Shown: positions 2,939 to 20,064 of the stretch, piece after piece | Layout: each line of letters begins with the position of its first letter | Numbering within the stretch: position 1 is the stretch's first letter | Source of the DNA: Cedecea neteri NBRC 105707 = ATCC 33855 | GTDB taxonomy: Bacteria > Pseudomonadota > Gammaproteobacteria > Enterobacterales > Enterobacteriaceae | Assembly: GCF_001571265.1 (NCBI RefSeq) | Contig: NZ_BCTL01000012.1 | Span: 1-64,000 of the forward strand | DNA length: 64,000 nt | Reading direction: 5' to 3' | Translations under genes and position numbers: made by a program | Notes under the pieces: model-generated | The model's input: the letters and a program-made list of their open reading frames with translations, nothing else | Told to the model about the DNA's origin: nothing | The model's database searches: none

Positions 2939-3083
2939 CGTCTAAAATCAGGCGGCTGGCAACCCCAACGTCTGAAAAACGACGGCGCTTAACAACGAAA
3001 ATCAACCCATTGATTTTCTGCTAAAACATCCAGGAGGGAAACATGGCTTTCCCTCTTTTCCAGCAACGTTATAGGTAACTGAC

Positions 3084-6000: not shown

Positions 6001-6422
6001 TGCCGAACCAGGCATTCATTACCGAGCAGTTTATCAACTGGTCACTTTCGGACTCGGTCACGCGTGTGGTGCTCACCATTCCGGCCCCGTCAGAAGCGAA
6101 TACGGAAGAGGTCACCCAGGTCCTGCTGGAAGCAGCGCACCGCTGCACGCTGGTACTCGATACGCCACCGCCGGAAGCTTTCCTGGTCGATCTCCAGCAG
6201 GGTATCCAGATGTTCGAACTGCGTATTCACGCAGCGGAGATGGGCCACCGTATGCCGCTGCGCCACGAAATCCACCAGCTGATTCTGCAGGGCTTCCGCG
6301 AGCACAACATTGAGATGCCGTTCCCACCGTTCCAGATGCGTCTGGAAAGCCTCGGCGGGCAGCGCAGCAGTAAGACGATTAAATCCGCGGGCAGAGCCGC
6401 CAGAACACCCGGCAGCCTGTAA
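3084..6422 (+). CDS. mscM: Miniconductance mechanosensitive channel MscM (YjeP)
   Basis: Large MscS-family channel of the inner membrane that opens on hypo-osmotic shock. It has 1112 residues (E. coli 1107). In order: a signal peptide ending near AYA, a long Gln/Leu-rich periplasmic coiled coil to about residue 430, some eleven hydrophobic segments, then the MscS domain in the last 280 residues with the glycine-rich pore helix (VGLGFGLQQIFANFVSGL) and the beta domain after it (IGDTVTIRDLTGTI). The start is GTG 3084 because it places the signal peptide at the N-terminus. In E. coli epmA is a near neighbour of this end; here yhaJ follows instead. Confidence 0.95.
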   Translation: MRLIITFLMAWCLSLGAYAATAPDAKQISQELEQAKAAKNTPNQAEIVEALQSALNALDERKASLERAEQYQQVIDNFPKLSQTLRKQLTNLRDEPEEVPPGMSSDALNQEILQVSSQLLDKSRLAQQEQERTRDISDSLSQLPQQQTDTRRQLNDIERRAGSQQSGSTPLAQAQHFLLQAESARLKAQVDELELAQLSANNRQELARMRAELAQKQSTQLDAYLQALRNQLNSQRQREAEQALESTELLAETSANLPPEIFEQFKNNRELSQALNQQAQRMDLVASQQRQANNQTLQVRQALNTLREQSQWLGVSNVLGEALRAQVARLPDMPKPQQLDTELAQLRVERLHYEDLLNKHAKLRQVRQADGSPLTAEQNKILQAQLRTQRELLNSLLQGGDTLILELTKLKVANSQLEDALKEVNEATHRYLFWTSDVSPIGISWPLEIVQDLRRLVSLDTFSQLGKAAIMMVTSKETLLPLFGALILVGFSISSRRHFTAFLERSSAKVGKVTQDHFRLTLRTVFWSILVASPLPVLWATLGYGLQEAWPYPIAVAIGDGVTATVPLLWGVMICATFARPTGLFVVHFGWPRERVGRAMRYYIMSIGLIVPLIMALIMFDNLNDREFSASLGRLCFIMICGALAIVTLSLKRAGLPLYLDKQGDGDNIVNTILWNLLLCAPLMAILAAIVGYLMTAQALLARLETSVAIWFLLLVVYHIIRRWMLIQRRRLAFDRAKHRRAEILAQRARGEEDTAHANSTEGSVETVDEPEVDLDTISAQSLRLVRSILMLIALLSVIFLWSEIHSAFGFLGNITLWDVTSTVQGVESIEPITLGAVLIAILVLIITTQLVRNLPALLELAILQHLNLTPGTGYAITTITKYLLLLIGGLVGFSMIGIEWSKLQWLVAALSVGLGFGLQQIFANFVSGLIILFEKPIRIGDTVTIRDLTGTITRINTRATTISDWDRKEIIVPNQAFITEQFINWSLSDSVTRVVLTIPAPSEANTEEVTQVLLEAAHRCTLVLDTPPPEAFLVDLQQGIQMFELRIHAAEMGHRMPLRHEIHQLILQGFREHNIEMPFPPFQMRLESLGGQRSSKTIKSAGRAARTPGSL

Positions 6423-6440
6423 TTTTAAGGAAGGAAAAAA

Positions 6441-6470
6441 ACGCGTTGGCAAAAACCAACGCGTTTTTTT
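6441..6470. terminator. Bidirectional terminator between mscM and yhaJ
   Basis: Inverted repeat ACGCGTTGG / CCAACGCGT at 6441-6449 and 6456-6464. It is flanked by a run of A on the left and seven T on the right, so it can act on both convergent genes. Confidence 0.85.
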
Positions 6471-7359
6471 ATTTCAGCAGCTTGGGTAGCTCGCGTAAGC
6501 ACCAGGCTTTGGCCTCGCCCATGCTGTCGCGTCGCCACGCCATAATAATATCAATCTCGTTGGTATATTCCGGGCTAACCACCCGCAGACGACCTTCGGC
6601 AATGTCCTGCTCAACCAGTGGATACGGCATCGTCGCCACACCAAGTCCGGCCAGCAGCGCCAGCCGCTTCTCTTCGATAGAGCTCACCGTCAGGCGCGGC
6701 TGCTTGTCCAATAAGCGCACCGTTAACACCGGCCTTTCACGGGCTGTATCCGCCACCGCCACGCCACGATACTTCACCCGAGTCACCTCAGAAAGTGGTT
6801 CCGGCTCCTGATGAATCGGGTGGTCCGGCGCGGCAACATAAACGCTCATCACTTTGTAAAGCTTGCGGGAGTTAATCTCCGAGGAACTGCGGAAGTGCAT
6901 ATCCGGCGCGATAACGATATCCGCCCTGCCCTGCTCCAGGCGCTCCCAGGCCCCGGCCAGCACTTCGGTAAAAATAGACAATTGAGTGTCGGCTTTATCA
7001 GCCAGTTTATCGACCAGCGGGAACAGTTTTTCCGTCGGCACCAACGCTTCAGTGACGATGGTCAGGTTTGCCTCCCAGCCCCGCGCCAGCGCTTCCGCAT
7101 CGGTGGTCAGCTTATCCGCTGCCTCGAGCAGCACGCGCCCTCGCTCCAGCAGCATACGCCCCACGTTGGTAAATTTGGTGCGATGACCCGATCGGTCAAA
7201 CAACACCACATCCAACTCTTCTTCCAGTTTTTGCATGGTGTAGCTAAGCGCGGACGGTACACGCCCCAGCTCGTCGGCCGCAGCGGCAAAGCTCCCCCGC
7301 CTGTCGATCGCATCCATGACCCTTAACGCTTCCAGCGTCAACGCCCTTTCTTTTGCCAT
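6469..7359 (-). CDS. yhaJ: LysR-type regulator YhaJ
   Basis: 296-residue LysR-type regulator. The N-terminal winged HTH is at about residues 5-65 (EALRVMDAIDRRGSFAAAAD), followed by a LysR effector domain. The sequence is nearly identical to E. coli YhaJ, a regulator reported to act on yqjF and virulence genes and to respond to nitroaromatic-derived quinones. It is divergent from yhaK, as in E. coli, across a 105 bp gap that probably contains both promoters. In E. coli this pair is not next to mscM, so the left boundary is a rearrangement point relative to that genome. Confidence 0.93.
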   Translation of the reverse strand: MAKERALTLEALRVMDAIDRRGSFAAAADELGRVPSALSYTMQKLEEELDVVLFDRSGHRTKFTNVGRMLLERGRVLLEAADKLTTDAEALARGWEANLTIVTEALVPTEKLFPLVDKLADKADTQLSIFTEVLAGAWERLEQGRADIVIAPDMHFRSSSEINSRKLYKVMSVYVAAPDHPIHQEPEPLSEVTRVKYRGVAVADTARERPVLTVRLLDKQPRLTVSSIEEKRLALLAGLGVATMPYPLVEQDIAEGRLRVVSPEYTNEIDIIMAWRRDSMGEAKAWCLRELPKLLK

Positions 7360-7464
7360 TTCGTTCTCATTCAGGAAATTTGAACATACCGAGCAGATTA
7401 ACTGGCTAACAATGCAGCGTCCAGACCCTTAACATGGGTTTAGTGTAAAGAGAGGTCAAGAATT

Positions 7465-8166
7465 ATGATTACGACAAGAACAGCCAAACAGTGTGGTAAA
7501 GCTGACTACGGATGGCTGCAGGCTCGCTACACCTTTTCTTTTGGACACTACTTCGACCCGAAACTGCTGGGTTACGCCTCCCTGCGCGTGCTCAACCAGG
7601 AAGTTCTGGCCCCCGGAGCCTCGTTTCAACCGCGCGGCTACCCGAAAGTAGACATCCTCAACCTGATTCTGGAAGGGGAAGCGGAATACCGCGACAGCGA
7701 AGGCAACCATATTCAGGCCAGCGCTGGCGAAGTCTTACTGCTTTCCACCCAGCCAGGCATCAGCTATAGCGAGCACAACCTCAGCAAGGAAAAATCGCTG
7801 ACGCGCATGCAACTGTGGCTGGATGCCTGCCCGGACCGTGAAAATCCACAGGTACAGAAGATCCCATTAGCGGGAGCATCGCATCAGCTGATTGCCTCGC
7901 CGGACGGCAGCAATCGCAGTTTGCAGCTGCGTCAGCAAGTGTGGGTCCACCATATTGAGATGGAAAAAGGGGAGCAGTTAAGCTTCCAGCTTCACGGCCC
8001 ACGAGCCTATCTGCAGTCGATTCACGGCACGGTGCACGCGGTGACGTCCACAGAAGAGAAGGAAGCGTTAACCTGCGGCGACGGCGCGTTTATTCGTGAT
8101 GAAGCAAATATCACTCTGGTAGCCGATACGCCCCTGCGCGGCCTGCTGATCGACCTACCGGTTTAG
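7465..8166 (+). CDS. yhaK: Bicupin YhaK (pirin-like)
   Basis: 233-residue cytosolic bicupin of the pirin superfamily. It closely matches E. coli YhaK, described as redox-sensitive and lacking the usual pirin metal site. The N-terminal cupin begins near FSFGHYFDP, and the second cupin covers roughly residues 150-233 (ending ADTPLRGLLIDLPV). The start ATG 7465 follows a GAGAGG-type ribosome site. It is transcribed away from yhaJ and ends in a strong terminator, so it is monocistronic. Confidence 0.94.
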   Translation: MITTRTAKQCGKADYGWLQARYTFSFGHYFDPKLLGYASLRVLNQEVLAPGASFQPRGYPKVDILNLILEGEAEYRDSEGNHIQASAGEVLLLSTQPGISYSEHNLSKEKSLTRMQLWLDACPDRENPQVQKIPLAGASHQLIASPDGSNRSLQLRQQVWVHHIEMEKGEQLSFQLHGPRAYLQSIHGTVHAVTSTEEKEALTCGDGAFIRDEANITLVADTPLRGLLIDLPV

Positions 8167-8175
8167 TTTCACCCT

Positions 8176-8206
8176 CTGCCTCTTTCGCTCAGAAAGAGGC
8201 AGTTTT
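8176..8206 (+). terminator. yhaK terminator
   Basis: An 11-bp perfect stem (CTGCCTCTTTC at 8176-8186, complement at 8192-8202) with a five-base loop, followed by TTTT. Confidence 0.88.
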
Positions 8207-9131
8207 CCCCTCATCCCTGGGTATTTCTCCACAGAATTTATCCTGTAGAAAGTGATGCAAACCTCCCATCATCCTGGCCAAAAGCCGTATCCGGCGAAAT
8301 ATTGCCATGCCCACAAATAACAACCCCGATATATTCTCATTAGCCTTAGAACTTTATTGCTTTGATTAATAGTCGTCTGCAGGGTCGGCATAACCGCTAA
8401 CTCATTCAAATATTTCGATAAATCTTCATTCAGTCTTTCAATCAACGCGCGCGTAGACTATCGATTCCGATTCTGTAAAAGCCCCATATAGTAAGTAAAT
8501 ATTTAATGGTGGCGATTCACTTACCCCTTACTATTTGTCATGATTTAAATAATAACCCAATATTTATAATAAGTTACGAACACCTGCTGTGAGTTTTACT
8601 CTTCCCATATCAAAACTCAGGGTTCTGCGTTTCTGGGAGCGCTCTTTTATTATTTTAAAGTGGGAAATCTCTTTAGATATTTCGCAAATGTCAGCTTTGC
8701 GACAGTGACAATAGCAGAATCAGCATCAGCAAATTCGCGCCACACTGGGAACATTCCCAATTTTCACTGACTTTTTAAAACCAACATCTAAACGCTTACC
8801 TGATTCATTATTTAAAAGGCCTGAAATGAATATTAATGCTCGTCAGGTTATTAAAAAAATCGCTTTAAAAACAAAAACAGAATGTGTGATAACGCTCACC
8901 AACTGGAACGTTCCCGCTTTACGACAAAAAAAAGAGACGTTTAAGATTGCACGGTCTTTTGAACCACTTTTGAGAATTCGATATCAGACAAAAAATCATA
9001 AAATGAAATTATAAAATCAGAAAAATGCCAGATGAAGAGAACCGGAAAAATTAAGAAAACCGGCGAACACTCTCGGCCTAAAAATAAATACAAATATAAC
9101 ACTGATGAACGCTACAGCGTTTAGCTATCCC
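8207..9131. other. AT-rich stretch without a convincing gene
   Basis: About 0.9 kb clearly richer in A/T than its neighbours, with no recognised gene. A 62-codon frame at 8826-9014 (+) is Lys-rich and matches nothing I know. A reverse-strand frame over about 8260-8450 stays open for roughly 60 codons but has no ribosome site and is closed upstream by a stop; it could be a gene remnant. The composition suggests acquired DNA or a regulatory region for the accessory operon that follows. Confidence 0.5.
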
Positions 9132-9314
9132 GCAAGCTTATTCTTGCAGGCACGTTGATACATACAGCACTTGAAAGCCAGCGCCAGCAGGGCGCTAACG
9201 ACGTTTTCTGATTTTGCCGGTTCCGAAGGGCTTCGGGCGCCATTGAAAACGAAGCCACTCGGGATGTATCAATTGCTTACAACAAATAAGCGTAGCAGTT
9301 TCGCTTAAAAGGGG
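9132..9314 (+). promoter_or_regulatory. Candidate structured leader RNA upstream of the accessory operon
   Basis: Five pairings can be read directly. GCAAG/CTTGC forms a small hairpin (9132-9147). A 9-bp perfect closing helix joins 9155-9163 to 9264-9272 (TTGATACAT with ATGTATCAA). It encloses AGCGCC/GGCGCT (9180-9196) and CCGAA/TTCGG (9223-9236). A last hairpin TAAGCG/CGCTTA (9287-9307) abuts the AAGGGG ribosome site at 9309-9314. This looks like a multi-stem 5' leader controlling translation of the glycosyltransferase. I cannot match it to a named riboswitch class. Pairing is seen; function is inferred. Confidence 0.5.
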
Positions 9315-9322
9315 TAGTCGCC

Positions 9323-11989
9323 ATGGATGTTTATGGTCAAAGGTATGCCATGTTTATCTCTTTTGATGCTGTCGCCGTATCGGGTATTACGGTTGAAGCA
9401 TTAAAAGTCTCACAAAGTCTTAAGCAAAAAGGCATCAACTCTTATCTCGACCTCGGGTACGACATTAAAGTTGACAAAGGAAATTTTAATAAGCCTTACG
9501 ATCATGAGCCCGAAATTTATCGCGATGCGTTTACCTTAACGCGCATCAGCGGGATTACCTCTGTCCCCCATTATTCTCCGGAGTTTATTGAGAAAGCCCA
9601 CGCCGTACTTATCAGTGAAAGGCTTTCCGTTTCATTTGAAGAAAAAGCAGAAATAATCCGTGCCGTTGAATATTCCGCCCAAAGCCTGGCCGAAAGAATT
9701 TTACTTCAATGGGAGCAACTTCGAATTTGCACCGTCATTGTCGAAAACGGCACGCTGCCAGAAAATATTATTTACACCCACGCGCTTTATCTCGCTATCG
9801 AACAATACGGCCATCGTCACCAGTTAGGGAATTTTGTTATCTGGCGCGATCACGACCTTATGTGGAACAGCGAAAAAAATATCATGAAGTATGGGTTACC
9901 GCCGTATAACCATGCCATTAAACCTGTCAAATCCCCTTTTATTAGCTACGTTACGCTGAATAACGATCTCAAAGAAAAGCTGGAACACTGGTGCCACCGG
10001 GAAGTCGATATTCACGTGGTAAAAAATACCTACAGCTTTACCGGGCAGCAGGCGCTGAAAAACATCCGGGCATCCCTGAACATTCCCGAACGGGACATAG
10101 TCATTGCCCGAACGACGCGCATCATTCCGCAGAAGCGCCTGGACCGAGACGTGCTGTTGGTGCAACGCCTTAACCATCTGTTCAGAAAACACAATATTGA
10201 TAAATCCGTCTGGCTGTTGATTGCCGGTGATACTCGTGAACACGCCACGCATGCAGGCGAGTTGGAACGCCTGGCACAGGAGCTGGACATTGCCCCCTAC
10301 GTGAAATTTCTTGGCCCGCTGCACCATAACTTCATGCCCAAAAGCCTGGGGAAAATCACCATAGAAGATCTCTACCATTCCTGTGACCTGGTGTCGTTCC
10401 TGACCTCATGGGACTACGACAGCTACGGTAACCCGATTGGTGAAGCGATCAGCAGCCAGCGCTGCTATATCACCACCCGCTATGAATATTACCCGGAAGT
10501 CTACGGCCAGCACGGCTTTGAAGCCCCGGTAATGCCTATCTCAGACGGGCAGGACGGCCTGCCTGACGAAGCCTTTATCAACGAAGTCTTTTTGCTGCTG
10601 ACCAATAAACCTCAAATGGACCGTATTGCCGCGAAGAACTTCGCCATCGGCAAAAACATCCTTTCTAACAACGTGATGGACATTCTGAATATCACCGCCC
10701 CAGGAGTAGATATGCGCGATAACATTTTCGTCTCGGTAGTGCTGCCTGTTTACAATGAAAGCGACCGAATAGATGAAGTTCTGGCCTCGTTATTTGACCA
10801 ACAAACTCATGGCCGATTGGTAACCCATGACGCTTATGAAGTGATTATCGTGGACAACAACTCCCGCGATGATTCCGTGGCAAAGATAAACCACTTCAAA
10901 GAAAAACATCCGGCGATGGATGTGCACATTATCCAGGAGAAGATTCAGGGTGTCTCTTCGGCCCGTAAATGCGGTATGGATTATGCGGCCCTGCGCTCAA
11001 GGGCGCGTGATGCCCGGCTGGGAAAAAGCAATAAACACTATATTGTTTCTGCCGATGCCGACTGCACCGTGGATCCTTACTGGCTGCATACCCTGATAGA
11101 AAAAATGATTGCCGACGATGGCGACCTCGGCACCTGCAATTACTACTACAACCGCGAGGCTTTCCAGCAGCGCCCCAACCTTTTTCGCGAAATACAAAAA
11201 ACCCTGCGCTGCCGCGACGTGTCATTCTCGCTGTTTGGCGGCTTCCCGGATGGCAAAGGCTTCGCCGTTGAGCGCGACCTGTACGAAAAAATTGGCGGCA
11301 TTGAGATCTTCTACCAGTTGGAAAAAGGCCGCTTCGTTGAGCACCTGTCCGACGACTGGGATTTCGGCATCAAGATCATCGCCTGGGGCGGCAAACCTGT
11401 TTACGCCAAAGAATCCTTTGTGGAAATCAACAGCCGCCGCGTTGACACCATCATTGACGATGTGATCAACGGCATCGCCTACGGTAGCGACGGCATCATC
11501 ATCATGAAAGACGTGCGCCCGGACGTCTCAATCCAAAACAACACGCTGATTGACCTCACCGAGGAACAGGCCAGACAGGGCTGGGAATACTCCATTAAGG
11601 ACTACATCCCGAAAAACATCGTTCTTCCGGCCCTGCTAAATCCGCACATTTTGCTGGAGAACGAACGGGTGCGAGCCTTTTTCTCCCCGCAGGTTGCAGA
11701 GCGGCTTTACCAGCGCATTCACGCCATTAAGCGTGAGATGAGCATCATCGACTTCAAGCCGATTCATAGCTACAAAACGCCGGCCTACCGGCTCTATTTC
11801 GAGTTCCGCCACGAGATATTCACCGCGCTGCGCAATGCCGTTGGGGAAGACATTGGCTTTGCCCCTCCGCTCCCGGCCTGTTTTGACAACGTTGCGGAAA
11901 AAGATTTCGAACGCTTCGTCTGGTACTTCTGTGAAGATCGCGAGTCCGGTGAAGCCCACAACTACTTTGCCAACGGAGGTGTTTTCTGA
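9323..11989 (+). CDS. Two-domain glycosyltransferase (GT4-like + GT2-like)
   Basis: 888-residue cytoplasmic protein. Residues about 1-450 look like a GT-B fold family 4 enzyme, with ARTTRIIPQKRLDRD near 260 and a donor-site region CDLVSF...GNPIGEA near 355-375. From about residue 466 a GT-A family 2 domain starts (VSVVLPVYNESDRI), with DNNSRDDS and the metal-binding SADADCTVDP near 576-584. The C-terminal 200 residues are unassigned. ATG 9323 follows AAGGGG by 8 nt; a second ATG at 9350 is possible. It is the first gene of the operon and its stop overlaps the next start (TGATG). It probably adds one or two sugars to a product of the neighbouring enzymes; donor and acceptor are unknown. Confidence 0.75.
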   Translation: MDVYGQRYAMFISFDAVAVSGITVEALKVSQSLKQKGINSYLDLGYDIKVDKGNFNKPYDHEPEIYRDAFTLTRISGITSVPHYSPEFIEKAHAVLISERLSVSFEEKAEIIRAVEYSAQSLAERILLQWEQLRICTVIVENGTLPENIIYTHALYLAIEQYGHRHQLGNFVIWRDHDLMWNSEKNIMKYGLPPYNHAIKPVKSPFISYVTLNNDLKEKLEHWCHREVDIHVVKNTYSFTGQQALKNIRASLNIPERDIVIARTTRIIPQKRLDRDVLLVQRLNHLFRKHNIDKSVWLLIAGDTREHATHAGELERLAQELDIAPYVKFLGPLHHNFMPKSLGKITIEDLYHSCDLVSFLTSWDYDSYGNPIGEAISSQRCYITTRYEYYPEVYGQHGFEAPVMPISDGQDGLPDEAFINEVFLLLTNKPQMDRIAAKNFAIGKNILSNNVMDILNITAPGVDMRDNIFVSVVLPVYNESDRIDEVLASLFDQQTHGRLVTHDAYEVIIVDNNSRDDSVAKINHFKEKHPAMDVHIIQEKIQGVSSARKCGMDYAALRSRARDARLGKSNKHYIVSADADCTVDPYWLHTLIEKMIADDGDLGTCNYYYNREAFQQRPNLFREIQKTLRCRDVSFSLFGGFPDGKGFAVERDLYEKIGGIEIFYQLEKGRFVEHLSDDWDFGIKIIAWGGKPVYAKESFVEINSRRVDTIIDDVINGIAYGSDGIIIMKDVRPDVSIQNNTLIDLTEEQARQGWEYSIKDYIPKNIVLPALLNPHILLENERVRAFFSPQVAERLYQRIHAIKREMSIIDFKPIHSYKTPAYRLYFEFRHEIFTALRNAVGEDIGFAPPLPACFDNVAEKDFERFVWYFCEDRESGEAHNYFANGGVF

Positions 11990-13437
11990 TGAATACCGAA
12001 GCTATCGCGTCATTAAAAGATCTCGACCCGGCTTACCCTGTTCCGGCGGTTTACGACTTCCTCTCCCAACCGGATAACGAGGCTTTTCTGGACTACGTCC
12101 ACAAAGATCCTTTTGGCTGCCATGTGTTTCCCGGTGACATTGAGCACTACCCGCTGACATCGTTTTTTGCCGATATGGAGCACGACATTCGGGCTGCGAA
12201 ACAGATCCATCTGTGGGCCTATATCCCCACCTGCCGTTACCGCTGCCACTTCTGCCAGTATCCAACGGTGATCCTCAATCCGAAATCGCCTTCGGCAGAA
12301 GGTGTATTCCGGGATCTCGTGGACTACAACATTAAAGAAGCGAAGATGTGGCTGGAAAAAGTGCCAAGCCTGTCAAAGGCGGAAATTGGCGAATTCAACA
12401 TCTTTGGCGGCACGCCTTCCCTGCTCCCGGAGCCGGAACTGCGTCGGCTGATGGATTTCTATTACACACACTTTAATTTCTCGGCGGCAACGCTTCGCTT
12501 TGAAGGCGAACCTGGGACATTAAACCGTGAATACATCGGCATTCTGAAAGAGCTGGGCTTCAGCAAAATCAGCTTCGGCACCCAATCCTTTAACGACGCT
12601 ATTATTGCCGCCTGTGGCCGCCAGCACACCGCCGATGAGTGTGAAGAGACCATCCGCAGCGCACGGGAACAGGGCATCGACTGGGTCAGCGTCGATCTTA
12701 TCTACGGCATGCTGGGCCAAACCGTGGATGACGTGAAGTACGACATGGAGCGCACCCTGGAGCTGGATCTCTCCCACGTAGTCTGCACCAAGCTGCACAT
12801 GGAAGAGTTCATGAAAACGCGCACCGGCGTTTCCGGCGAACGCGAAAGCCTTTGGCAGAAAAAAGGCCTGATCAACATGAACAGCATGACGTTCCCGGGG
12901 CTGGGCAAGCAATACCAAATGCGCGAACTGGTCGAAAAATATCTCAACGAAGGCTATCGCGAACACCCCACGATGTATTTCCACCAGAACCACCTGGAAG
13001 CTGAAAAGTGGAAAGGGCTAATCACCGATCTGGATAAACAGTATCCCGAAGTCGCCATTGGCCTGGGCGGCAGTTCGAAATGCACCCGCGCCGAAGCCAT
13101 CAACATTACCGGCTATAAGCAATATAAGCAGTACCTCGACGAAGGCCGCTTGCCTATCGAAGAAAGCCACGGTATTTCACCGGAACAGCGCGAAGTTAAC
13201 GCCTTCAAAATGGCCCTCTCCACGCTGATTCCGGTTGACGACGCCGTGTTCGCAACTCGTTTCAACGGCAACAGCTTTTTTGAAAACCGCATCATCAAAC
13301 CGACGCTGGAAAAGCTGCAGGCAAAAGAACTCGTGGTGATTAAGCAGGGCGTGGTCACGCTAACGCCCATCGGCGTCACGCTGGTTGAAGCCATCATTAA
13401 CACCCAATTTATCTCAGCCGACGCAGAGCAGGTGTAA
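11989..13437 (+). CDS. HemN-like radical SAM enzyme
   Basis: 482-residue radical S-adenosylmethionine protein of the HemN/HemW/ChuW superfamily. The iron-sulfur cysteines form CRYRCHFC (C82, C86, C89), preceded by AYIP as in HemN. The SAM-binding motif is FGGTPS at 139-144. ISFGTQSFND and a C-terminal HemN_C-like segment also fit. HemN relatives in accessory loci do methylation, cyclopropanation or haem opening rather than coproporphyrinogen oxidation, so the reaction here is open. The gene overlaps the glycosyltransferase stop by 1 nt, with GGAGGT upstream, and is followed after 3 nt by the first duplicated-domain protein: a translationally coupled set. Confidence 0.8.
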   Translation: MNTEAIASLKDLDPAYPVPAVYDFLSQPDNEAFLDYVHKDPFGCHVFPGDIEHYPLTSFFADMEHDIRAAKQIHLWAYIPTCRYRCHFCQYPTVILNPKSPSAEGVFRDLVDYNIKEAKMWLEKVPSLSKAEIGEFNIFGGTPSLLPEPELRRLMDFYYTHFNFSAATLRFEGEPGTLNREYIGILKELGFSKISFGTQSFNDAIIAACGRQHTADECEETIRSAREQGIDWVSVDLIYGMLGQTVDDVKYDMERTLELDLSHVVCTKLHMEEFMKTRTGVSGERESLWQKKGLINMNSMTFPGLGKQYQMRELVEKYLNEGYREHPTMYFHQNHLEAEKWKGLITDLDKQYPEVAIGLGGSSKCTRAEAINITGYKQYKQYLDEGRLPIEESHGISPEQREVNAFKMALSTLIPVDDAVFATRFNGNSFFENRIIKPTLEKLQAKELVVIKQGVVTLTPIGVTLVEAIINTQFISADAEQV

Positions 13438-13440
13438 CGC

Positions 13441-14232
13441 ATGAGCCACTCTTCAACCACGCCGGTTTTCAGCCTGTTTTACATCGCGATAGACACCGAA
13501 GCGGGCATTACCTCGCAGGCCTTTGAAACCTTTGTGCAAAACAAAGGCGTGCATATTCCCTGCTATCCGGGCTGGCGCTGGACGCTGCTTCGCGGGCTGC
13601 GTGGCGAACGTGCCGGGCAATATCTGATGCTGTTTGAAATCGAAAATGCGGCAATACGGGATCGCTATATGGCCGCAGACGGCAACCAGACCGAACAGGC
13701 CCGCGAGTTCTGGCGGCAGCATCCGGATGCGGAAGTGCTGTTGGCCGAATGGCGCAGCTACGGGACCTTCAGCGAACTGCCTACGCTGTTCACTGATTAT
13801 CGCCTGCTGGCCGAAAATCAGAAAAGCACCGTCAAGCCGGGCCCCCGCTACCAGCAGCAGCCCCCGGTTGCTCGGGTGATAGGTATTCACAACCTCGCGC
13901 TGCGCCCTGACGTCAGCGCCGAACAGTTTGAAAGCTTTATCGAGGGCAATCATCAGCGGATTGAAGATTACCCGGACTGGAAGTTCCGGTTGTTAAAAGG
14001 AGAGCGCGGTAACCGACTCGATCAGTATGTGGTGCTGATGGAAATCGCCAGCCTGGAGGCGCTGGATGTCTTTTACCCCGAGCCGGATATCGCCACCGAC
14101 GAAGCGGCAAAATTTGCCAGGGCGCACCGCGATACCAAACAAATGTACGAGGAATGGAAAAAGCTCGCCTCGTTTTCCGGGTCGCCGCAAATCTATACCG
14201 ATTACCTCTCGGTAGCAGAAAGTCTCAATTAA
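13441..14232 (+). CDS. Tandem ferredoxin-like-domain protein, copy 1 (unknown function)
   Basis: 263 residues made of two related halves of about 125 residues. Each half has a core of the form YPxW(K/R), LLxGxRGxR, QYxxLxEI and ends in a segment like SGSPQIYTDY or SELPTLFTDY. Length and pattern suggest a duplicated dimeric alpha/beta-barrel (ferredoxin-like) protein, as in EthD, NIPSNAP or chlorite-dismutase-like families, but I cannot place it in one. No signal peptide or membrane segment is seen. It is a paralogue of the gene at 15494-16288. A role as accessory enzyme or carrier for the radical SAM product is inference from context. Confidence 0.6.
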   Translation: MSHSSTTPVFSLFYIAIDTEAGITSQAFETFVQNKGVHIPCYPGWRWTLLRGLRGERAGQYLMLFEIENAAIRDRYMAADGNQTEQAREFWRQHPDAEVLLAEWRSYGTFSELPTLFTDYRLLAENQKSTVKPGPRYQQQPPVARVIGIHNLALRPDVSAEQFESFIEGNHQRIEDYPDWKFRLLKGERGNRLDQYVVLMEIASLEALDVFYPEPDIATDEAAKFARAHRDTKQMYEEWKKLASFSGSPQIYTDYLSVAESLN

Positions 14233-14246
14233 CCCTTGCCGCCGCG

Positions 14247-14288
14247 CGTGCCCGAAGGACCGGGCACGACGCATTCACGCGAGTGAAT
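14247..14288 (+). promoter_or_regulatory. Two intercistronic hairpins
   Basis: CGTGCCCG/CGGGCACG (14247-14254 with 14261-14268) gives an 8-bp GC stem. ATTCAC/GTGAAT (14273-14278 with 14283-14288) closes on a GCGA tetraloop. No T-run follows either. They fit an RNA-processing or partial-attenuation element inside the operon rather than a full terminator. Confidence 0.5.
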
Positions 14289-14313
14289 CCATACACTGAG
14301 TCACGAAATTACT

Positions 14314-15477
14314 ATGACGATTAACTCAACCCCAACCCTGGCGGACGTACAGTCGCGGGAACAACATGCCACACGCGCCATATTTTTTATGGCCGGTTTA
14401 GCCATGTCGTCGTGGGCTCCGCTTATTCCTTTTGCCAAAGCGCGGCTGGATATTAACGACGGCGCTTTAGGACTACTGCTCTTTTGCATAGCCGCAGGCT
14501 CAATGCTCGTCATGCCGTTTACCGGCCGCCTGATTACACGGTTCGGCGGCCGTCGGCTGATGATCCTCAGCGTGCTGGGGCTTGCCGTGGATTTACCGCT
14601 GCTGATGCTGTTTGACCAGCGCGAAGCCATGGCGCTGGCTTTGCTGCTGTTCGGCACCTTCAACGGCATGCTCGACGTCGCAATGAATGCCCACGCCGTT
14701 GTGGTCGAACAGGAAAGCGAGCAGGCAAAAATGTCCGGCTTTCACGGCTTTTACAGCATCGGCAGCATTGCCGGCGCGGGCTGCGTCAGCTTCTTTCTGT
14801 GGCTGGGGGCAACGCCGTTGCTTGCCGTGTCCGCTATTGGCATTTTTCTTGCTTTGCTGCTCGCCGCTTCTTCCCGGAACATTTTGCCCAAACAGAGCAG
14901 TGCCACAAGCGGCAAGGGCGAAACGCTACGCGTCCTGAGCCATCCGCCGGTGCTGGTCATCGCGGTACTTTGTTTTTTCGTCTTCATGCTTGAAGGCGCC
15001 ATGTTGGACTGGTCGGCGGTATTTATGACCTCAGAGCGAGGCATGAGCGCTTCGCTCGCGGGCTTCGGCTACACCTTGTATTCCCTCACCGTCACCCTTG
15101 GGCGGCTCAGCGGCGATCGTCTGGTCAGCGCTCTGGGCGGCAAGCTGGTGCTGCTCCTCGGCTGCACCATTGCCGCCGCCGGGATTGTCCTGCTTGTCTT
15201 CACCCATTGGGGCACCTTGCCGGGGTTTATCCTGATCGGGGCCGGACTCGCCAACATTATCCCCATTCTCTTCACCTCTGCCGGTAATCAGCCCGGAATT
15301 TCAGCGGATTTCGCTATCCCTGCCGTCACACTTTTTGGCTACAGCGGCCTGCTTGCGGGGCCCGCGCTGATTGGCTTTATCGCCCATCACATTGGGCTCA
15401 GTTTGACCTTCAGCGGTGCTCTGTTGCTGCTTTTGTTTGTGGCTTCAGGTTCGCCGTTTATTTCTCGCCAGCGTTAA
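14314..15477 (+). CDS. MFS transporter (YbjJ-like)
   Basis: 387-residue inner-membrane protein with about twelve hydrophobic segments and an MFS loop 2-3 motif (GRLITRFGGRRLMIL). It resembles the YbjJ-type MFS group. Lying between the two duplicated-domain genes, it most likely exports the locus product or an intermediate; import cannot be excluded. It follows the upstream gene after 81 bp containing two hairpins and is followed after 16 bp by the second paralogue, so it is probably in the same transcript. Substrate unknown. Confidence 0.75.
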   Translation: MTINSTPTLADVQSREQHATRAIFFMAGLAMSSWAPLIPFAKARLDINDGALGLLLFCIAAGSMLVMPFTGRLITRFGGRRLMILSVLGLAVDLPLLMLFDQREAMALALLLFGTFNGMLDVAMNAHAVVVEQESEQAKMSGFHGFYSIGSIAGAGCVSFFLWLGATPLLAVSAIGIFLALLLAASSRNILPKQSSATSGKGETLRVLSHPPVLVIAVLCFFVFMLEGAMLDWSAVFMTSERGMSASLAGFGYTLYSLTVTLGRLSGDRLVSALGGKLVLLLGCTIAAAGIVLLVFTHWGTLPGFILIGAGLANIIPILFTSAGNQPGISADFAIPAVTLFGYSGLLAGPALIGFIAHHIGLSLTFSGALLLLLFVASGSPFISRQR

Positions 15478-15493
15478 TGAAACAGGAGTTTGT

Positions 15494-16288
15494 ATGAGTC
15501 AATCATCACCGGCAGTATTCAGCCTTCACTATGTGGGCCTTAACCTGAAAAAGGGGGTAACCGAAGAGACGTTTGAAGCCTTTGTTCAGGCCAAAGGCGT
15601 GCAGATCCCGGCCTATCCGGGCTGGCGATGGACCTTGCTGAAAGGCCTGCGCGGCGAGCGTCAGAACCAATATCTGATGCTGTACGAAGCAGAAAATGCC
15701 GACAGCTACTCGCGCTATATTGATAGCCAGGGGGAACAAACGGAGCAGGCTCGTGCTTTTTGGCGCGATCATCCGACGGGCGTCGAGCTTATCAACACCT
15801 GGAAAACCTTCGCGACGTTTGGCGAGCTGCCAACGATTTTCTCCACCTATCAGCAGCTCGCTGAAAACGAACATAGCTCTTTGGCGGAAGGGCCAAACTA
15901 CCAGCTACGGGACGGGCAGGAGCCGATTAAACGCGTGCTCGGGCTGCATAATCTGGCGCTACGCTCGGGCGTTTCCCCGCAGACTTTCGATGCGTTTATC
16001 CGGGACAACGTTCACCGCATCGACGACTATCCGGGCTGGAAATTCCATATGCTGAAAGGCACCGGGGGCAACCGCATCGAGCAATATTTGGTGATGCTCG
16101 AGATAGAAAGCCTGGCCTCGCTGAACTCTTTCCACCCGGAACTCGACGTTTCCACGGAGAAATCACTGCAGTTCGTGAAGGAACATCAGGAAAGCGAAAG
16201 GATGTACGACGAATGGCGCGAACTGGCGTCGTTTTCCGGCGCACCGCAGCTTTATACCGACTACATCACCATCGCCGGTAGCCTGTAA
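15494..16288 (+). CDS. Tandem ferredoxin-like-domain protein, copy 2 (unknown function)
   Basis: 264-residue paralogue of the protein at 13441-14232, with the same two-half structure: YPGWRWTLLKGLRGER in the first half and YPGWKFHMLKGTGGNR in the second, each ending in a short YTDY/FSTY segment. ATG 15494 is chosen because AGGAG lies at 15484-15488 and the N-terminus (MSQSSPAVFSLHYVGL) aligns with the paralogue; the frame stays open further upstream inside the transporter gene. Keeping two copies suggests a heterodimer or two substrates. Function unknown. Confidence 0.6.
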   Translation: MSQSSPAVFSLHYVGLNLKKGVTEETFEAFVQAKGVQIPAYPGWRWTLLKGLRGERQNQYLMLYEAENADSYSRYIDSQGEQTEQARAFWRDHPTGVELINTWKTFATFGELPTIFSTYQQLAENEHSSLAEGPNYQLRDGQEPIKRVLGLHNLALRSGVSPQTFDAFIRDNVHRIDDYPGWKFHMLKGTGGNRIEQYLVMLEIESLASLNSFHPELDVSTEKSLQFVKEHQESERMYDEWRELASFSGAPQLYTDYITIAGSL

Positions 16289-16295
16289 CCTTACG

Positions 16296-16323
16296 TTTCC
16301 CTTCTCCTGACGGGGAAGGGAAA
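16296..16323. terminator. Strong hairpin between convergent genes
   Basis: A 12-bp stem (TTTCCCTTCTCC at 16296-16307 with 16312-16323, one G-T pair) and a TGAC loop. There is no T-run. It lies between the end of the accessory operon and the convergent ATPase gene. Confidence 0.55.
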
Positions 16324-16329
16324 GCGGCG

Positions 16330-17427
16330 TTATGCGAGCTGGGCCATCGTGGTTTCCCCTTTCTCAATACCTAACTCGTATAGCGTGAACGACGCGTGTT
16401 TTTCGATAAGGGTTGCCAGTTCAGGCGAGTGGCTGGTGAGCCAAATCTGCGTATAGCGGCTGGCCTCGGCAATCAGACGGGCAAGCGCCGGGAGCATTTG
16501 CGGATGCAGGCTATTTTCCGGCTCGTTGAGGGCAATAAACTGTGGCGGCCTTGGGCTGAGTAGCGCTACCGTCAGGCAGAGAAAACGCAGCGTGCCGTCA
16601 GAAAATTCAGCAGCCTCCAGAGGCCGGTTAATCCCCAGTCGGTTCATCATCATCTGGAAGCGCCCACCGGTGTTATCGCAGAAAAACGTACACTCCGGGA
16701 AGGCCTCATCCAGCACGGTAAACATCAGCTCACTGTCGCCAATTTCGACGATGGTCTGAAACGCAGCGGCCAGATTCAGACCATCGCCGGACAGTACAGG
16801 AGACCGGTAGCCCACCTGCGGTAGCCTCAGGCCTGCCCCTTTGGAAATATCGAACTCGTGATAGAAGCGCCAGTTACGCAGCGTCTCCCTGGCGCTGGAA
16901 ACTTCCGGGTAAAGGTGCGGCTCACCAAGCTGGCCAAAGAGGGATTCATTTTCATACAGCGTGGCGGCGTGAGTGACCTTTTCGCCGTTGACGTTATTGA
17001 GGAACACCGTCTGATTACGCCGCTGCATTACCGACGACGAAGGGCGGCGCCGGTAGCCACTGAGCCAGATTTGCTCCTCTTTAACGATAGGATCGAGGCC
17101 AAACATCGTCGGGTACGGCAGCGGTTCGGGGAAACCCACCTGCAGCTCATATTCAAACGTGTCGGTTTCTACCGCCAGCGTCAGCCTGCGCGGCGCGCTG
17201 GCGTAACCCCGGGCGCGATCTCCCGCCCACATCGCTTTCTGGATCCCGCCTTCATCAGAAAGCCAGTGAGACAATTGTCCACTTCCCGCGCCGTGGATCA
17301 GGTGGATCGCCTTATAAATATTAGACTTACCGCACCCGTTCGGCCCAAACACCACGTTCAACCTTCCCAAATCAATGGAAAGCTTGCGCACGGAACGATA
17401 GTTGTCGATATACAGGGATTTGATCAT
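16330..17427 (-). CDS. AAA family ATPase (RecF/SMC-like, COG4637 type)
   Basis: 365-residue predicted ABC-class ATPase. The Walker A is GPNGCGKSN at residues 28-36. The Walker B region reads FIALNEPENSLHP, where the usual Asp is Asn301 but the catalytic Glu302 is kept. A switch His lies in TSHSPEL near 331-337. There is no TOPRIM domain, so it is not an OLD nuclease. The start is ATG 17427 (MIKSLYIDNYRSV); the open frame upstream of that overlaps a separate small gene. Such ATPases often work in DNA repair or defence with a partner; no obvious partner is adjacent. Function unknown. Confidence 0.7.
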   Translation of the reverse strand: MIKSLYIDNYRSVRKLSIDLGRLNVVFGPNGCGKSNIYKAIHLIHGAGSGQLSHWLSDEGGIQKAMWAGDRARGYASAPRRLTLAVETDTFEYELQVGFPEPLPYPTMFGLDPIVKEEQIWLSGYRRRPSSSVMQRRNQTVFLNNVNGEKVTHAATLYENESLFGQLGEPHLYPEVSSARETLRNWRFYHEFDISKGAGLRLPQVGYRSPVLSGDGLNLAAAFQTIVEIGDSELMFTVLDEAFPECTFFCDNTGGRFQMMMNRLGINRPLEAAEFSDGTLRFLCLTVALLSPRPPQFIALNEPENSLHPQMLPALARLIAEASRYTQIWLTSHSPELATLIEKHASFTLYELGIEKGETTMAQLA

Positions 17428-17503
17428 GATTATTCGCCGCAGTGAAACCCGGTGGTCATTATGACAAATACCCGGTAAAGCGCACTTTTTTGCCGCCAGT
17501 GCC

Positions 17504-17605
17504 TCAAAGCGATCCCAACGCAATCGCAATATAAAAGCACAGCACCGCAACGATCGTGCCGATCACAATCCTTCTGTCCGTCGCGTCGGGTTCTCTGTTT
17601 TGCAT
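17504..17605 (-). CDS. 33-residue small membrane protein
   Basis: A short gene: ATG at 17605, stop TGA at 17504-17506. The product begins MQNREPDATDRR and continues with one hydrophobic helix (IVIGTIVAVLCFYIAIALG). A strong AGGAGG lies 4 nt before the ATG. This ribosome site plus a clean charged-N-terminus/single-span layout is typical of enterobacterial small membrane proteins. It is divergent from the MarR-GNAT gene and shares its operator region. No name recognised; function unknown. Confidence 0.6.
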   Translation of the reverse strand: MQNREPDATDRRIVIGTIVAVLCFYIAIALGSL

Positions 17606-17657
17606 CTGGCCTCCTGGTGACTTGCCTGCCCTCATAATTTCGGTATGATACACAAAC

Positions 17658-17676
17658 TAGTTAACAGCGTTAACTA
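17658..17676. promoter_or_regulatory. Palindromic operator in the MarR divergent gap
   Basis: Perfect inverted repeat TAGTTAAC / GTTAACTA with a 3-nt spacer, 31 nt before the start of the MarR-GNAT gene. Its size and position fit an autoregulatory MarR-family site, and it could also control the divergent small membrane protein. Confidence 0.65.
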
Positions 17677-17706
17677 AATACATTTCCCTCATTGATGTGA
17701 GTTGTT

Positions 17707-18633
17707 ATGCATACCAACGAAATTGAAGAATTCCGCGCCGCGCTGCGCGAGATGGTGCGCGAGCTGGGCATGCTGAACCGGAAAAGCAGCGGAACCGATC
17801 TGTCACCGTTACAAAGTCATATTTTGATCGAGCTCGATCGTGAACCGGCCGGGGTAACCGAACTGGCGCGTCGGCTATGCGTGGAGAAATCCAGCATCAG
17901 CAGAACGCTTCGCGGTCTGGAAGACGCCAATCTACTGGCAAGAACGCAGGATGAAAGCGACGGGAGAGCCGCAGTGTTCAACCTGAGTCATGAGGGGGCT
18001 ACCGTACTTAAAGACCTTACCGAACACGCTAACGATTTCACAGCCCAGGCTCTTTCTCTGGCATCAGACAGTGAAAAACAGCAGATCTATCAGTCGGTCA
18101 AATCGCTGACTCGTGCGCTGGCGAATGCCCGTAGCCAACGAGATCTTCATGTCCAGATCAGGCCAATTTGCTCGGAAGACAATCACGCTATCGCCGAAGT
18201 TATCCGCCAAAGCTTCCGAGATAACAAAATCGACCATCTCGAAGGCGTAAGCCTGCACGATCCGGCGCTGAATGACCTGACCAGCGCCTACCAAAAATCT
18301 GGCTCTGGCTACTGGGTAGTTGAACGCGAAGGCAAGATTTTAGGCGGCGTTGGCATTGCACCTCTGCAGGGCGCAGGTGAAGAATATTGTGAATTACAGA
18401 AACTGTATCTGGACAGCAGCGCGACGGGCTTGGGCCTGGGAAGACGCCTGATGGCGCTGGCGATAGAGCGAGCCGAAGCGTTCGGCTATCGTTACTGCTA
18501 CCTGGAAACGCTAAATGAACTCAGCTCGGCGGTCTCACTCTACGAAGCGTTCGGTTTTAAGCATCTGGACGGCAGCCTGGGCAACACCGGCCATAACAGC
18601 TGCGAGATCTGCATGCTTAAAACGCTGAAATAA
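17707..18633 (+). CDS. MarR regulator fused to GNAT acetyltransferase
   Basis: 308 residues. Residues about 10-140 are a MarR winged helix-turn-helix (VTELARRLCVEKSSISRTLRGLED). Residues about 150-308 are a GNAT domain with the acetyl-CoA loop region LGLGRRLMALAIERAEAFGY and YEAFGF near the end. This fusion is a known bifunctional architecture. A 19-bp palindrome upstream suggests autoregulation. The acetyl acceptor is unknown. It is convergent with rnpB. Confidence 0.8.
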   Translation: MHTNEIEEFRAALREMVRELGMLNRKSSGTDLSPLQSHILIELDREPAGVTELARRLCVEKSSISRTLRGLEDANLLARTQDESDGRAAVFNLSHEGATVLKDLTEHANDFTAQALSLASDSEKQQIYQSVKSLTRALANARSQRDLHVQIRPICSEDNHAIAEVIRQSFRDNKIDHLEGVSLHDPALNDLTSAYQKSGSGYWVVEREGKILGGVGIAPLQGAGEEYCELQKLYLDSSATGLGLGRRLMALAIERAEAFGYRYCYLETLNELSSAVSLYEAFGFKHLDGSLGNTGHNSCEICMLKTLK

Positions 18634-18646
18634 TCTTTTTTAAAAA

Positions 18647-18716
18647 CAAAACGCCCCGCCGGTTTTCACCTGCAGGGCGTTTCGACATGAATGAGTTGAA
18701 GCTGACCGATAAGCCG
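18647..18716. repeat. Extra copy of the rnpB 3' end and terminator
   Basis: Identical over 70 bp to 18772-18841 (offset 125). It contains the last bases of the rnpB RNA and its terminator hairpin. A further piece, GTCGTGGACAGTCATTCATCT, is also repeated just after each copy. E. coli carries comparable tandem repeats downstream of rnpB. Confidence 0.85.
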
Positions 18717-18773
18717 CCTTCCTGCCATGAATAGCGTCGTGGACAGTCATTCATCTTTTTGTCCCTGAATGCA

Positions 18774-18807
18774 AAACGCCCCGCCGGTTTTCACCTGCAG
18801 GGCGTTT
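18774..18807 (-). terminator. rnpB terminator
   Basis: On the minus strand, AAACGCCC pairs with GGGCGTTT. The stem continues with small mismatches to a GAAA-type loop and is followed by TTTTG. A second copy is in the upstream repeat and would serve as a backup. Confidence 0.75.
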
Positions 18808-18818
18808 CGACATGAATG

Positions 18819-19195
<377 letters not shown>

Positions 19196-19254
19196 GGCGC
19201 GCAGTATAGAGGGTTTCATCTCCCCTGTCACGCAGGCTCACCAGAAACGAAATG

Positions 19255-20064
19255 CTAGTCGCCCACCAGCACCACATCAATCCCGCTCTTGCGCAGCGCG
19301 TTCAGGCTATCTGCCGGAATACCTTTATCGGTAATCACCCGGTGAATGCGCTGGATATCGATGATTTTATGCAGGCTGGAACGGTTAAATTTGCTGGAGT
19401 CTGTCACCACGATAACCCGCTCGGCAACTTCGCACATTTTGCGGTTGAGGCGCGCTTCATCCTCGTTATGGGTGCTCACACCGCGTTCTGGATCGATCGC
19501 ATCCACGCCGAGAAAAAGCATGTCGAAATGATAATTTTGCAGCGACTGTTCCGCACTATCGCCGTAAAACGACAGCGACTGGCGACGCAGATGCCCGCCG
19601 GTCATCAGCACCTCAACACCTTCCGCTTCCAGCAGTGCGTTTGCCACGTTAATGCCGTTAGTCATCGCAATCACCTCTTTATGCTGGCGCATCAGCCGGG
19701 CGATTTCATATGTCGTGGTACCGGAGTCCAGAATCACCTTGTCGCCAGGCTGAATCAAATCCGCTGCAATACGAGCGATGCTGCGCTTCAGGGAAGTGTT
19801 AAGCGAGCTTTTGTCTTCCACAGAAGGCTCTGCTACAACGCTGCCCGGTTCACAAATCAGCGCCCCACCGTAGGCACGAACCGCAATGCCCTGCTTTTCA
19901 AGAAACGCGAGGTCGTTGCGAATGGTAACGGTAGAAACACCAAAAAAAGAAGATAAATCATTAACCTGTACGCTTCCCTGCTGGCGAAGACGCTGGATAA
20001 TCTGCTCGCGTCTTTCGCTGGTACCCGGAATACGTTTGTCCGTTGCGGTATCGTTGTTGCTCAT
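19255..20064 (-). CDS. agaR: DeoR-family aga regulon repressor AgaR
   Basis: 269-residue DeoR-type repressor, very close to E. coli AgaR, which represses the GalNAc/galactosamine genes. The N-terminal HTH is at about 25-75 ([21 protein letters not shown]), and the C-terminal sugar-phosphate sensor has [13 protein letters not shown] and MTGGHLRR. I chose ATG 20064 (MSNNDTAT), 8 nt after an AAGG ribosome site; this gives the E. coli length. An upstream start would add MKGYP. It is divergent from kbaZ, with several AgaR-like sites between. Confidence 0.95.

Follow-up and report, generated by a model that had tools for sequence, protein, structure and literature searches.

A mobile glycosyltransferase-radical SAM locus of gammaproteobacteria and rhizobia, with a possible link to trehalose

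Background

HemN-like class C radical S-adenosylmethionine (SAM) enzymes carry a CxxxCxxC motif, to which HemN adds a fourth cysteine two residues past the third. One such enzyme, NocN, acts in a thiopeptide pathway, and a radical SAM enzyme together with a glycosyltransferase and an exporter is a common layout for ribosomally made modified peptides. A further point of comparison is the rhizopine mos locus of Sinorhizobium, in which a small molecule made by bacteroids, a symbiotic replicon, nitrogen-fixation control and a gene of the major facilitator superfamily (MFS) come together. Here we describe a locus of Cedecea neteri NBRC 105707 (= ATCC 33855) that can be set beside all of these. It lies in the first 64,000 nucleotides of contig NZ_BCTL01000012.1 (assembly GCF_001571265.1; this whole stretch is called the window) and comprises five intact co-directional open reading frames (ORFs) at 9323-16288, where a first-pass annotation of the same DNA had placed them. 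In order, these encode a fused glycosyltransferase of families GT4 and GT2, a HemN-like radical SAM enzyme (rSAM), a duplicated-domain protein (DDP1), an MFS transporter and a second duplicated-domain protein (DDP2).

Each of the enzyme classes is known. No described pathway with this gene set was found in the open-licence PubMed Central (PMC) literature, as that annotation had supposed, and the distribution of the set, its trehalose context and its link to a nodule regulon were likewise not found described there. Our reading, to which we give a probability of roughly 0.47, is that the locus builds and modifies a small trehalose-based glycoside; gammaproteobacteria would export it, and rhizobia would make it in nodules under NifA control.

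Results

The five genes were compared across 55 loci: the window, 46 loci from a scan of species-representative genomes based on an rSAM alignment, and 8 from plasmid records. The scan used two peptide patterns, so the 46 are a lower bound. GT4 and GT2 directly precede rSAM in all 55 loci, fused as in the window or, in many relatives, as two separate ORFs; one core copy is cut by a contig end and several are frameshifted. DDP1, MFS and DDP2 genes were all detected after this core in 26 loci, all of them gammaproteobacterial and one (L070) frameshifted; the carriers of this full set are the window's own group, Kosakonia, Duffyella, Ewingella, Serratia, CwR94 and Pseudomonas. DDP1 with a partial MFS gene follows in one locus (Pseudomonas fragi) and DDP1 only in six (four from Lonsdalea, two from Pantoea). 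The remaining 22 have the core without the other three genes: 20 from rhizobia, one from Pseudochrobactrum (a frameshifted core standing alone) and one at a contig end. In strain TH31 the contig stops after rSAM and two DDP genes lie on another contig, and in Pantoea wallisii a second DDP gene is likewise on another contig. The conserved unit is thus the GT4-GT2-rSAM core, and DDP1-MFS-DDP2 is a gammaproteobacterial add-on. The first-pass annotation had taken all five genes as the unit and proposed checking whether they travel together; they do not in the 20 rhizobial loci or in the six from Lonsdalea and Pantoea.

The same division appears in whole genomes. A DDP gene was found nowhere in the 14 rhizobial genomes searched versus in 9 of 9 gammaproteobacterial ones, and in the window's family rSAM and DDP co-occur in the same 8 of 198 genomes, its own included. 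rSAM occurs in 10 of 398 genomes of a Pseudomonas-genus sample; it had no match in phages at 1e-30, and a search for near relatives gave no match in E. coli genomes. In the best rSAM tree the rhizobia form two clades among gammaproteobacterial ones, and the well-supported branches are compatible with a single rhizobial origin. Among the side observations, a DDP gene is present on plasmid records of Pantoea dispersa strains other than the one whose core was seen; in the record examined (L019, 7806-9789) it is of the DDP2 type and adjoins an MFS gene, and the core is lacking. In Kosakonia sacchari (L057, 10001-12265) rSAM and DDP1 share one 754-residue frame, possibly a natural fusion to judge by the sequence. 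The GT4 frame is broken near residues 218-234 in three separate loci (L021, L034, L052), presumably close to the linker expected between the two Rossmann domains; these breaks may be pseudogenes, assembly errors or real domain splits.

The locus is also missing, with its site empty, from a congener (G619). There, by blastn, window positions 6120-8202 abut 16317-18867 with an 8-base overlap at the junction, and the distance from the pirin-like gene (7465) to the gene at 17707 is 1.4 kb versus 9.5 kb in the window. The operon is accordingly an insertion, extending over 8203-16316 on the + strand (8114 bp, ends placed within 8 bases) and made up of a leader and the five genes. The 1.1-kb leader (8203-9322, + strand) is AT-rich, with a GC content of 0.396 versus 0.554 for the window. 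Its end (9105-9322) gave one match per genome in 5 of the 12 genomes searched, its own included, and these five fall among the 8 same-genus genomes of that sample. The locus is horizontally mobile, because there is an empty site in a congener and the leader is present in five of eight same-genus genomes. No integrase- or transposase-like gene was seen among the ORFs of the insert, which were read by eye with no hidden Markov model search for transposases.

Measured against Kosakonia cowanii and Enterobacter sp. Ag1, the ratio of nonsynonymous to synonymous substitution rates is 0.03 to 0.11 in all six domains, and judged by these ratios the operon genes are under strong purifying selection. 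The closest of the fetched loci are those of Enterobacter sp. Ag1 and Cy-643, with rSAM 98% identical; the K. cowanii operon proteins are 81-92% identical to those of the window. The first-pass annotation had the first three genes translationally coupled. This holds for GT4-GT2 and rSAM, whose stop and start have one base in common; rSAM and DDP1 are instead separated by 3 nucleotides. The widest intergenic gap in the operon is 81 nucleotides.

What might the core act on? Neighbouring ORFs were clustered without choosing a pathway, giving 556 clusters in 26 contexts, 530 of which are confined to one context. Only six reach at least three contexts. Two of these are treB and treC, each in 3 of the 26, and the other four are generic by eye or by annotation (a chemotaxis receptor, an ATP-binding cassette (ABC) ATPase, a LysR protein and an AMP-binding enzyme). 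We then queried treB, treC, treR, treS, thuA, thuB, otsA and otsB; loci L075-L080 were fetched only for this check and stand outside the count of 55. Of 16 non-rhizobial contexts, with Pseudomonas counted once, 5 have trehalose genes next to the locus. In all four Lonsdalea loci a run of otsB, otsA, a GMC oxidoreductase gene, a class III aminotransferase gene and a sulfotransferase gene ends about 120 nucleotides before GT4; otsB (PF02358, 4.8e-31) and otsA (GT20, 5e-113) were identified with Pfam in L062 and by tblastn in the other three, and otsA is frameshifted in L063. A further GT20 gene, with a higher score, is present elsewhere in each of the four Lonsdalea genomes; in the single case compared it is 50% identical. 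In Pseudochrobactrum the genes of a sugar ABC system, thuA (PF06283, 1.3e-33) and a gene for a Gfo/Idh oxidoreductase precede the core, the last of them ending 15 nucleotides before GT4. In Duffyella treRBC ends about 150 nucleotides before the locus, in Pantoea treBC (L066) or treB (L069) is convergent just after DDP1 (P. dispersa and P. wallisii), and in two Pseudomonas groups a whole trehalose phosphotransferase system (tre-PTS) operon lies upstream. With 2% of random 21-kb stretches holding a trehalose gene, 5 of 16 has a binomial tail probability of about 1e-5; with 5% it is 9e-4. Both background rates are estimates, not counts.

The nodule data bear on the same question. In Paraburkholderia phymatum the symbiotic-plasmid treS gene (Bphy_7407) has a log2 fold change of -7.53 without NifA, and nodule trehalose is unchanged (PMC8305402). 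Steady trehalose despite the fall in treS expression is as expected if trehalose is both made and consumed; other readings fit too. Among 72,556 plasmid records, 5 have a treS of this type at 1e-100, and three of those five are the Paraburkholderia plasmids that hold the core genes; these three share ancestry, so the co-occurrence is probably one event.

A number of points weigh against trehalose. The queried genes are not beside the locus in 11 of the 16 non-rhizobial contexts, the window's own included (trehalase and treY/Z were not among the queries), and the count was framed after the first cases had been seen. Since treBC, tre-PTS and thu serve catabolism, their position beside the locus could reflect uptake, or a bias in insertion site, instead of precursor supply. 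The core copy of Pseudochrobactrum, one of the five contexts, is frameshifted. The fold of GT4 is not specific to trehalose synthases (see below). In P. phymatum treS is far from the core genes, and the Bphy_7407 type was not found on the plasmids of Cupriavidus, Rhizobium and Sinorhizobium that carry them. An alternative is that the product, be it a small glycoside or a sugar-modified metabolite, is unrelated to trehalose, and that the trehalose neighbours reflect coincidence or a shared insertion preference. The absence of the genes from 11 contexts, the catabolic nature of four of the five positive ones (thu, treBC, treBC, tre-PTS) and a GT4 that is not particularly TreT-like would all agree with this. 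We nevertheless hold it somewhat unlikely, for Lonsdalea has otsBA in the same gene run despite its other GT20 gene, the binomial tail is small on either estimate of background, and treS is co-regulated in P. phymatum according to the expression data cited. Trehalose as the precursor is suggested by gene context and co-regulation.

The window's own genome has a single GT20 match (contig C89; L096, 6745-8166). We do not take it as support because it is divergent, with 34% identity to the OtsA of the Lonsdalea operon, and adjoins a glutamine synthetase-like gene. The genome's one trehalase gene is on another contig. As a separate observation, Duffyella has a second, divergent GT20 gene on a plasmid, beside an integrase gene.

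Large plasmids with predicted conjugative ability bear the glycosyltransferase and rSAM genes (the pair) in the rhizobia P. phymatum, P. phenoliruptrix, P. sabiae, Cupriavidus taiwanensis, Rhizobium jaguaris and Sinorhizobium garamanticum; in the first two the pair lies about 9 kb from nodU-cysC. NodC scores over its curated cut-off in all 14 rhizobial carriers searched; in the genus of one carrier it is present in 26 of 144 genomes, counted irrespective of the pair. In nodules of a P. phymatum nifA mutant, rSAM (Bphy_7706) and the glycosyltransferase (Bphy_7707) have log2 fold changes of -4.07 and -4.98 (PMC8305402, Table 1), that is, a 17- to 32-fold drop, and in rpoN-mutant nodules Bphy_7707 changes by -3.6 (PMC5979394, Table 3). 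NifA dependence of the pair and sigma-54 dependence of the glycosyltransferase gene are thus published for P. phymatum only. In the open-licence PMC literature the P. phymatum pair otherwise appears in print only as expression-table entries and as one name in a list.

Would the other rhizobia regulate the pair in the same way? A sigma-54-like site (score at least 13) is upstream of the pair in 10 of 20 rhizobial loci (five Sinorhizobium, three Cupriavidus, P. mimosarum and P. atlantica) and in 1 of 35 others, against 3.5% of 2000 random stretches of rhizobial loci. Two results argue against a simple promoter story. In the stretch scanned upstream of the P. phymatum pair there is no sigma-54-like site, and the exact NifA site TGT-N10-ACA within 500 nucleotides is not enriched (1 of 20 rhizobial versus 4 of 35 other loci). 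Inspection by eye alone showed a TGT-N10-ACT variant in Sinorhizobium and Cupriavidus, located upstream of their sigma-54-like site. We note also that in two Paraburkholderia plasmids the pair is followed by a gene annotated with a hemerythrin domain (L020, 13974-14534; L021, 13975-14535). The P. phymatum gene, BPHY_RS41080 (Bphy_7704), is described as an AraC regulator in PMC8305402, where its log2 fold change in the nifA mutant is -5.92.

The fused glycosyltransferase (9323-11989, + strand, 888 residues) consists of a GT4 domain (9323-10717) and a GT2 domain (10721-11986). The GT2 domain matches Pfam Glycos_transf_2 (PF00535) at 1.1e-22, with 81.2 bits against a cut-off of 23.3; the GT4 domain scores 26.7 bits with PF13692, just below the cut-off of 27. 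For GT4 a profile search of the PDB gave nothing significant and a single-sequence search was empty. Its structural model (predicted local distance difference test score, pLDDT, 85.3) has a GT-B fold whose best PDB match is HepE (Z 27.6, root-mean-square deviation (rmsd) 3.7 over 352 residues). HepE, BshA and PimA are closest, and the trehalose synthase TreT (6zj7) ranks lower (Z 22.7, rmsd 4.4 over 342). Because of that rank the fold is no proof of trehalose chemistry and is too unspecific for GT4 to be assigned as a TreT. The score with the mycofactocin glycosyltransferase MftF is far below its cut-off (TIGR03965, 28.2 bits against 280).

Exopolysaccharide or lipopolysaccharide enzymes account for many of the named families to which the GT2 and GT4 parts come closest, and Bphy_7707 is filed under cell wall/membrane/envelope biogenesis in PMC5979394. 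Both facts would suit a unit for envelope or exopolysaccharide modification, in which GT4 and GT2 decorate a surface glycan that rSAM then alters. We consider this unlikely: the six recurrent neighbour clusters include no gene for a polymerase, a flippase or a lipid carrier (the rarer ones are mostly unannotated), and the transporter is an MFS protein, a class whose members usually move small solutes. That transporter (14314-15477, + strand, 387 residues) matches Pfam MFS_1 at 5.8e-25 (88.4 bits) and is 27% identical to the product of a gene annotated ybjJ in an E. coli record; the YbjJ-like family may be kin to the rhizopine gene mosC.

rSAM (11989-13437, + strand, 482 residues) matches Pfam Radical_SAM at 3.8e-20 (73.1 bits). 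Its CxxxCxxC motif is at C82/C86/C89, as first reported, and does not vary among the 8 relatives aligned (8 of 8). All eight lack HemN's fourth cysteine, having Q or A and then Y or F after C89. rSAM matches 27 NCBIfam families and is below the cut-off of all 25 that are listed, among them HemW (111.2 bits against 205.4), HemN (93.1 against 324.95), ChuW/HutW (90.7 against 400) and STM4012 (116 against 380). In a profile search the nearest solved structures are NocN (9p2u, 3e-24), titled a methyltransferase, and HemN (1olt, 3.4e-19). Kinship to a thiopeptide enzyme, together with the familiar grouping of radical SAM enzyme, glycosyltransferase and exporter, raises the possibility that rSAM and the glycosyltransferase modify a short ribosomally made precursor encoded nearby. 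Such a glycosylated peptide is very unlikely to be the product: the longest ORFs in the leader have at most 62 codons and the leader aligns poorly in K. cowanii (no formal precursor search was run), the 81-nucleotide gap is the largest space between the genes, and Lonsdalea brings in sugar enzymes instead.

DDP1 (13441-14232, + strand, 263 residues) and DDP2 (15494-16288, + strand, 264 residues) are 54% identical, and 29 DDPs were aligned. The start of DDP2 is placed at the ATG at 15494 because of the alignment with DDP1 and a ribosome-binding-like sequence before it; a GTG at 15416, which gives a longer ORF, appears less likely. For neither protein do Pfam and NCBIfam give a family over cut-off, and by sequence the DDPs have only chance-level matches in the PDB. 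The AlphaFold model of DDP1 (pLDDT 88.9) shows two ferredoxin-like repeats forming a barrel, so the duplicated barrel and the paralogy read from the sequence at first pass stand, as does the general picture of a small biosynthetic-type unit with a double glycosyltransferase, a HemN-like radical SAM enzyme and an exporter-like MFS protein. The best fold match is 2pgc (chain C; Z 15.3, rmsd 2.8 over 190), which by its title is uncharacterised, followed by the monooxygenase PenE (Z 12.3, rmsd 4.2 over 199), sulfur oxygenase reductase (Z about 12) and haem enzymes (Z 8-10). A haem or tetrapyrrole handling system, the alternative raised at first pass because rSAM is HemN-like and the DDP fold superfamily includes HmoB, chlorite dismutase and coproheme decarboxylase, is most improbable, as rSAM is far under the HemN, HemW and ChuW/HutW cut-offs and has no fourth cysteine, DDP1 fits 2pgc and PenE better than the haem enzymes, and no haem gene is among the six clusters that recur in at least three contexts.

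The end of the leader (9105-9322, + strand) may be a structured 5' leader RNA. Its folding z-score is -3.17, with 0 of 200 shuffles as low, and it is single copy and 89-91% identical in four congeners; covariation is not above that of shuffles and the leader has no Rfam match at the gathering threshold. A repeat element is ruled out by the single match per genome. Sigma-70-like promoters are in no excess over chance.

Both flanks are outside the unit and are kept with and without the insert. On the left is a gene that we take to be pirin-like (7465-8166, + strand), and on the right an AAA-type ATPase gene (16330-17550, - strand), named by eye from its sequence and retained in G619 (ORF 2091-3293 of the stretch fetched). 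Another congener (G620) has other cargo between the same flanks (2235-4899 of its stretch), a YhaM desulfidase-type ORF and a permease gene, both named by eye; because this cargo differs, the insertion site varies between congeners. Further to the right the window contains RNase P RNA (RF00010, 321.7 bits; 18819-19195, - strand), and an ORF at 18812-19258 that overlaps it on the opposite strand is probably not a gene. In congeners the repeats beside the RNase P gene (18647-18868) align at several neighbouring positions, so copy number is likely to vary from genome to genome.

Discussion

Taken as a pathway for a trehalose-based glycoside, the locus might work as follows. Trehalose would be supplied or redirected by genes of the host or of the locus (otsBA, treS, tre-PTS or thu, depending on the carrier), and GT4 and GT2 would add sugars to it or to a derivative. 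rSAM would then make a radical change, of which methyl transfer is the likeliest by its kinship with NocN. In gammaproteobacteria DDP1 and DDP2 would bind or tailor the product and the MFS protein would export it; in rhizobia the core alone would be switched on in nodules by NifA and sigma-54.

The product is probably an undescribed sugar-based signal or mimic. A more specific version, which we regard as a long shot, is that it is a radical-modified, glycosylated trehalose analogue acting on the host's trehalose metabolism, for example on trehalase. Symbionts in nodules, plant-associated enterics and bacteria living with insects or mushrooms (host ranges that we assume for the carriers) would then share it as a tool, and rhizobia would deliver it in nodules under the regulator of nitrogen fixation. 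For Lonsdalea such a route could run from trehalose made by OtsA and OtsB through oxidation, amination, sulfation and glycosylation to alteration by rSAM.

The trehalose context and the symbiosis link had escaped the first-pass annotation. They connect a strongly nodule-expressed, unexplained pair of genes in a legume symbiont with a mobile operon of plant-associated and other gammaproteobacteria, and they name trehalose as a testable precursor. If the trehalose reading is right, the product is a sugar-derived signal or mimic of a new class, acting at the interface of plant and microbe. The locus would also give a context for the DDPs, a protein type that scores over the cut-off of no Pfam or NCBIfam family.

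How does the locus stand beside known systems? With the retaining GT4 enzymes HepE, BshA, PimA, MshA and TreT its GT4 shares the GT-B fold over nearly the whole domain (Z 22-28), at only 10-16% identity. With HemN, HemW, NocN and STM4012, the HemN-like class C enzymes, rSAM has in common the CxxxCxxC motif and the Radical_SAM domain, and the STM4012 family is its best full-length match; unlike them it is under the curated cut-offs, is coupled to GT4 and GT2 in all 55 loci and is without the fourth cysteine. DDP1 has the two-repeat single chain of the tandem dimeric alpha+beta barrel proteins (2pgc, PenE, sulfur oxygenase reductase, HmoB) and differs from them in belonging to no named family. 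The rhizobial copies, unlike the rhizopine mos locus, have no adjoining MFS gene of the window's type, and the mos enzymes, we presume, differ from those here. Trehalose-analogue pathways, such as those for validamycin and trehalosamine, are a near parallel to the Lonsdalea variant, which joins OtsA and OtsB with an oxidoreductase and an aminotransferase. It departs from those pathways in that no cyclitol synthase gene was noticed among the genes looked at and in having a radical SAM enzyme at its centre.

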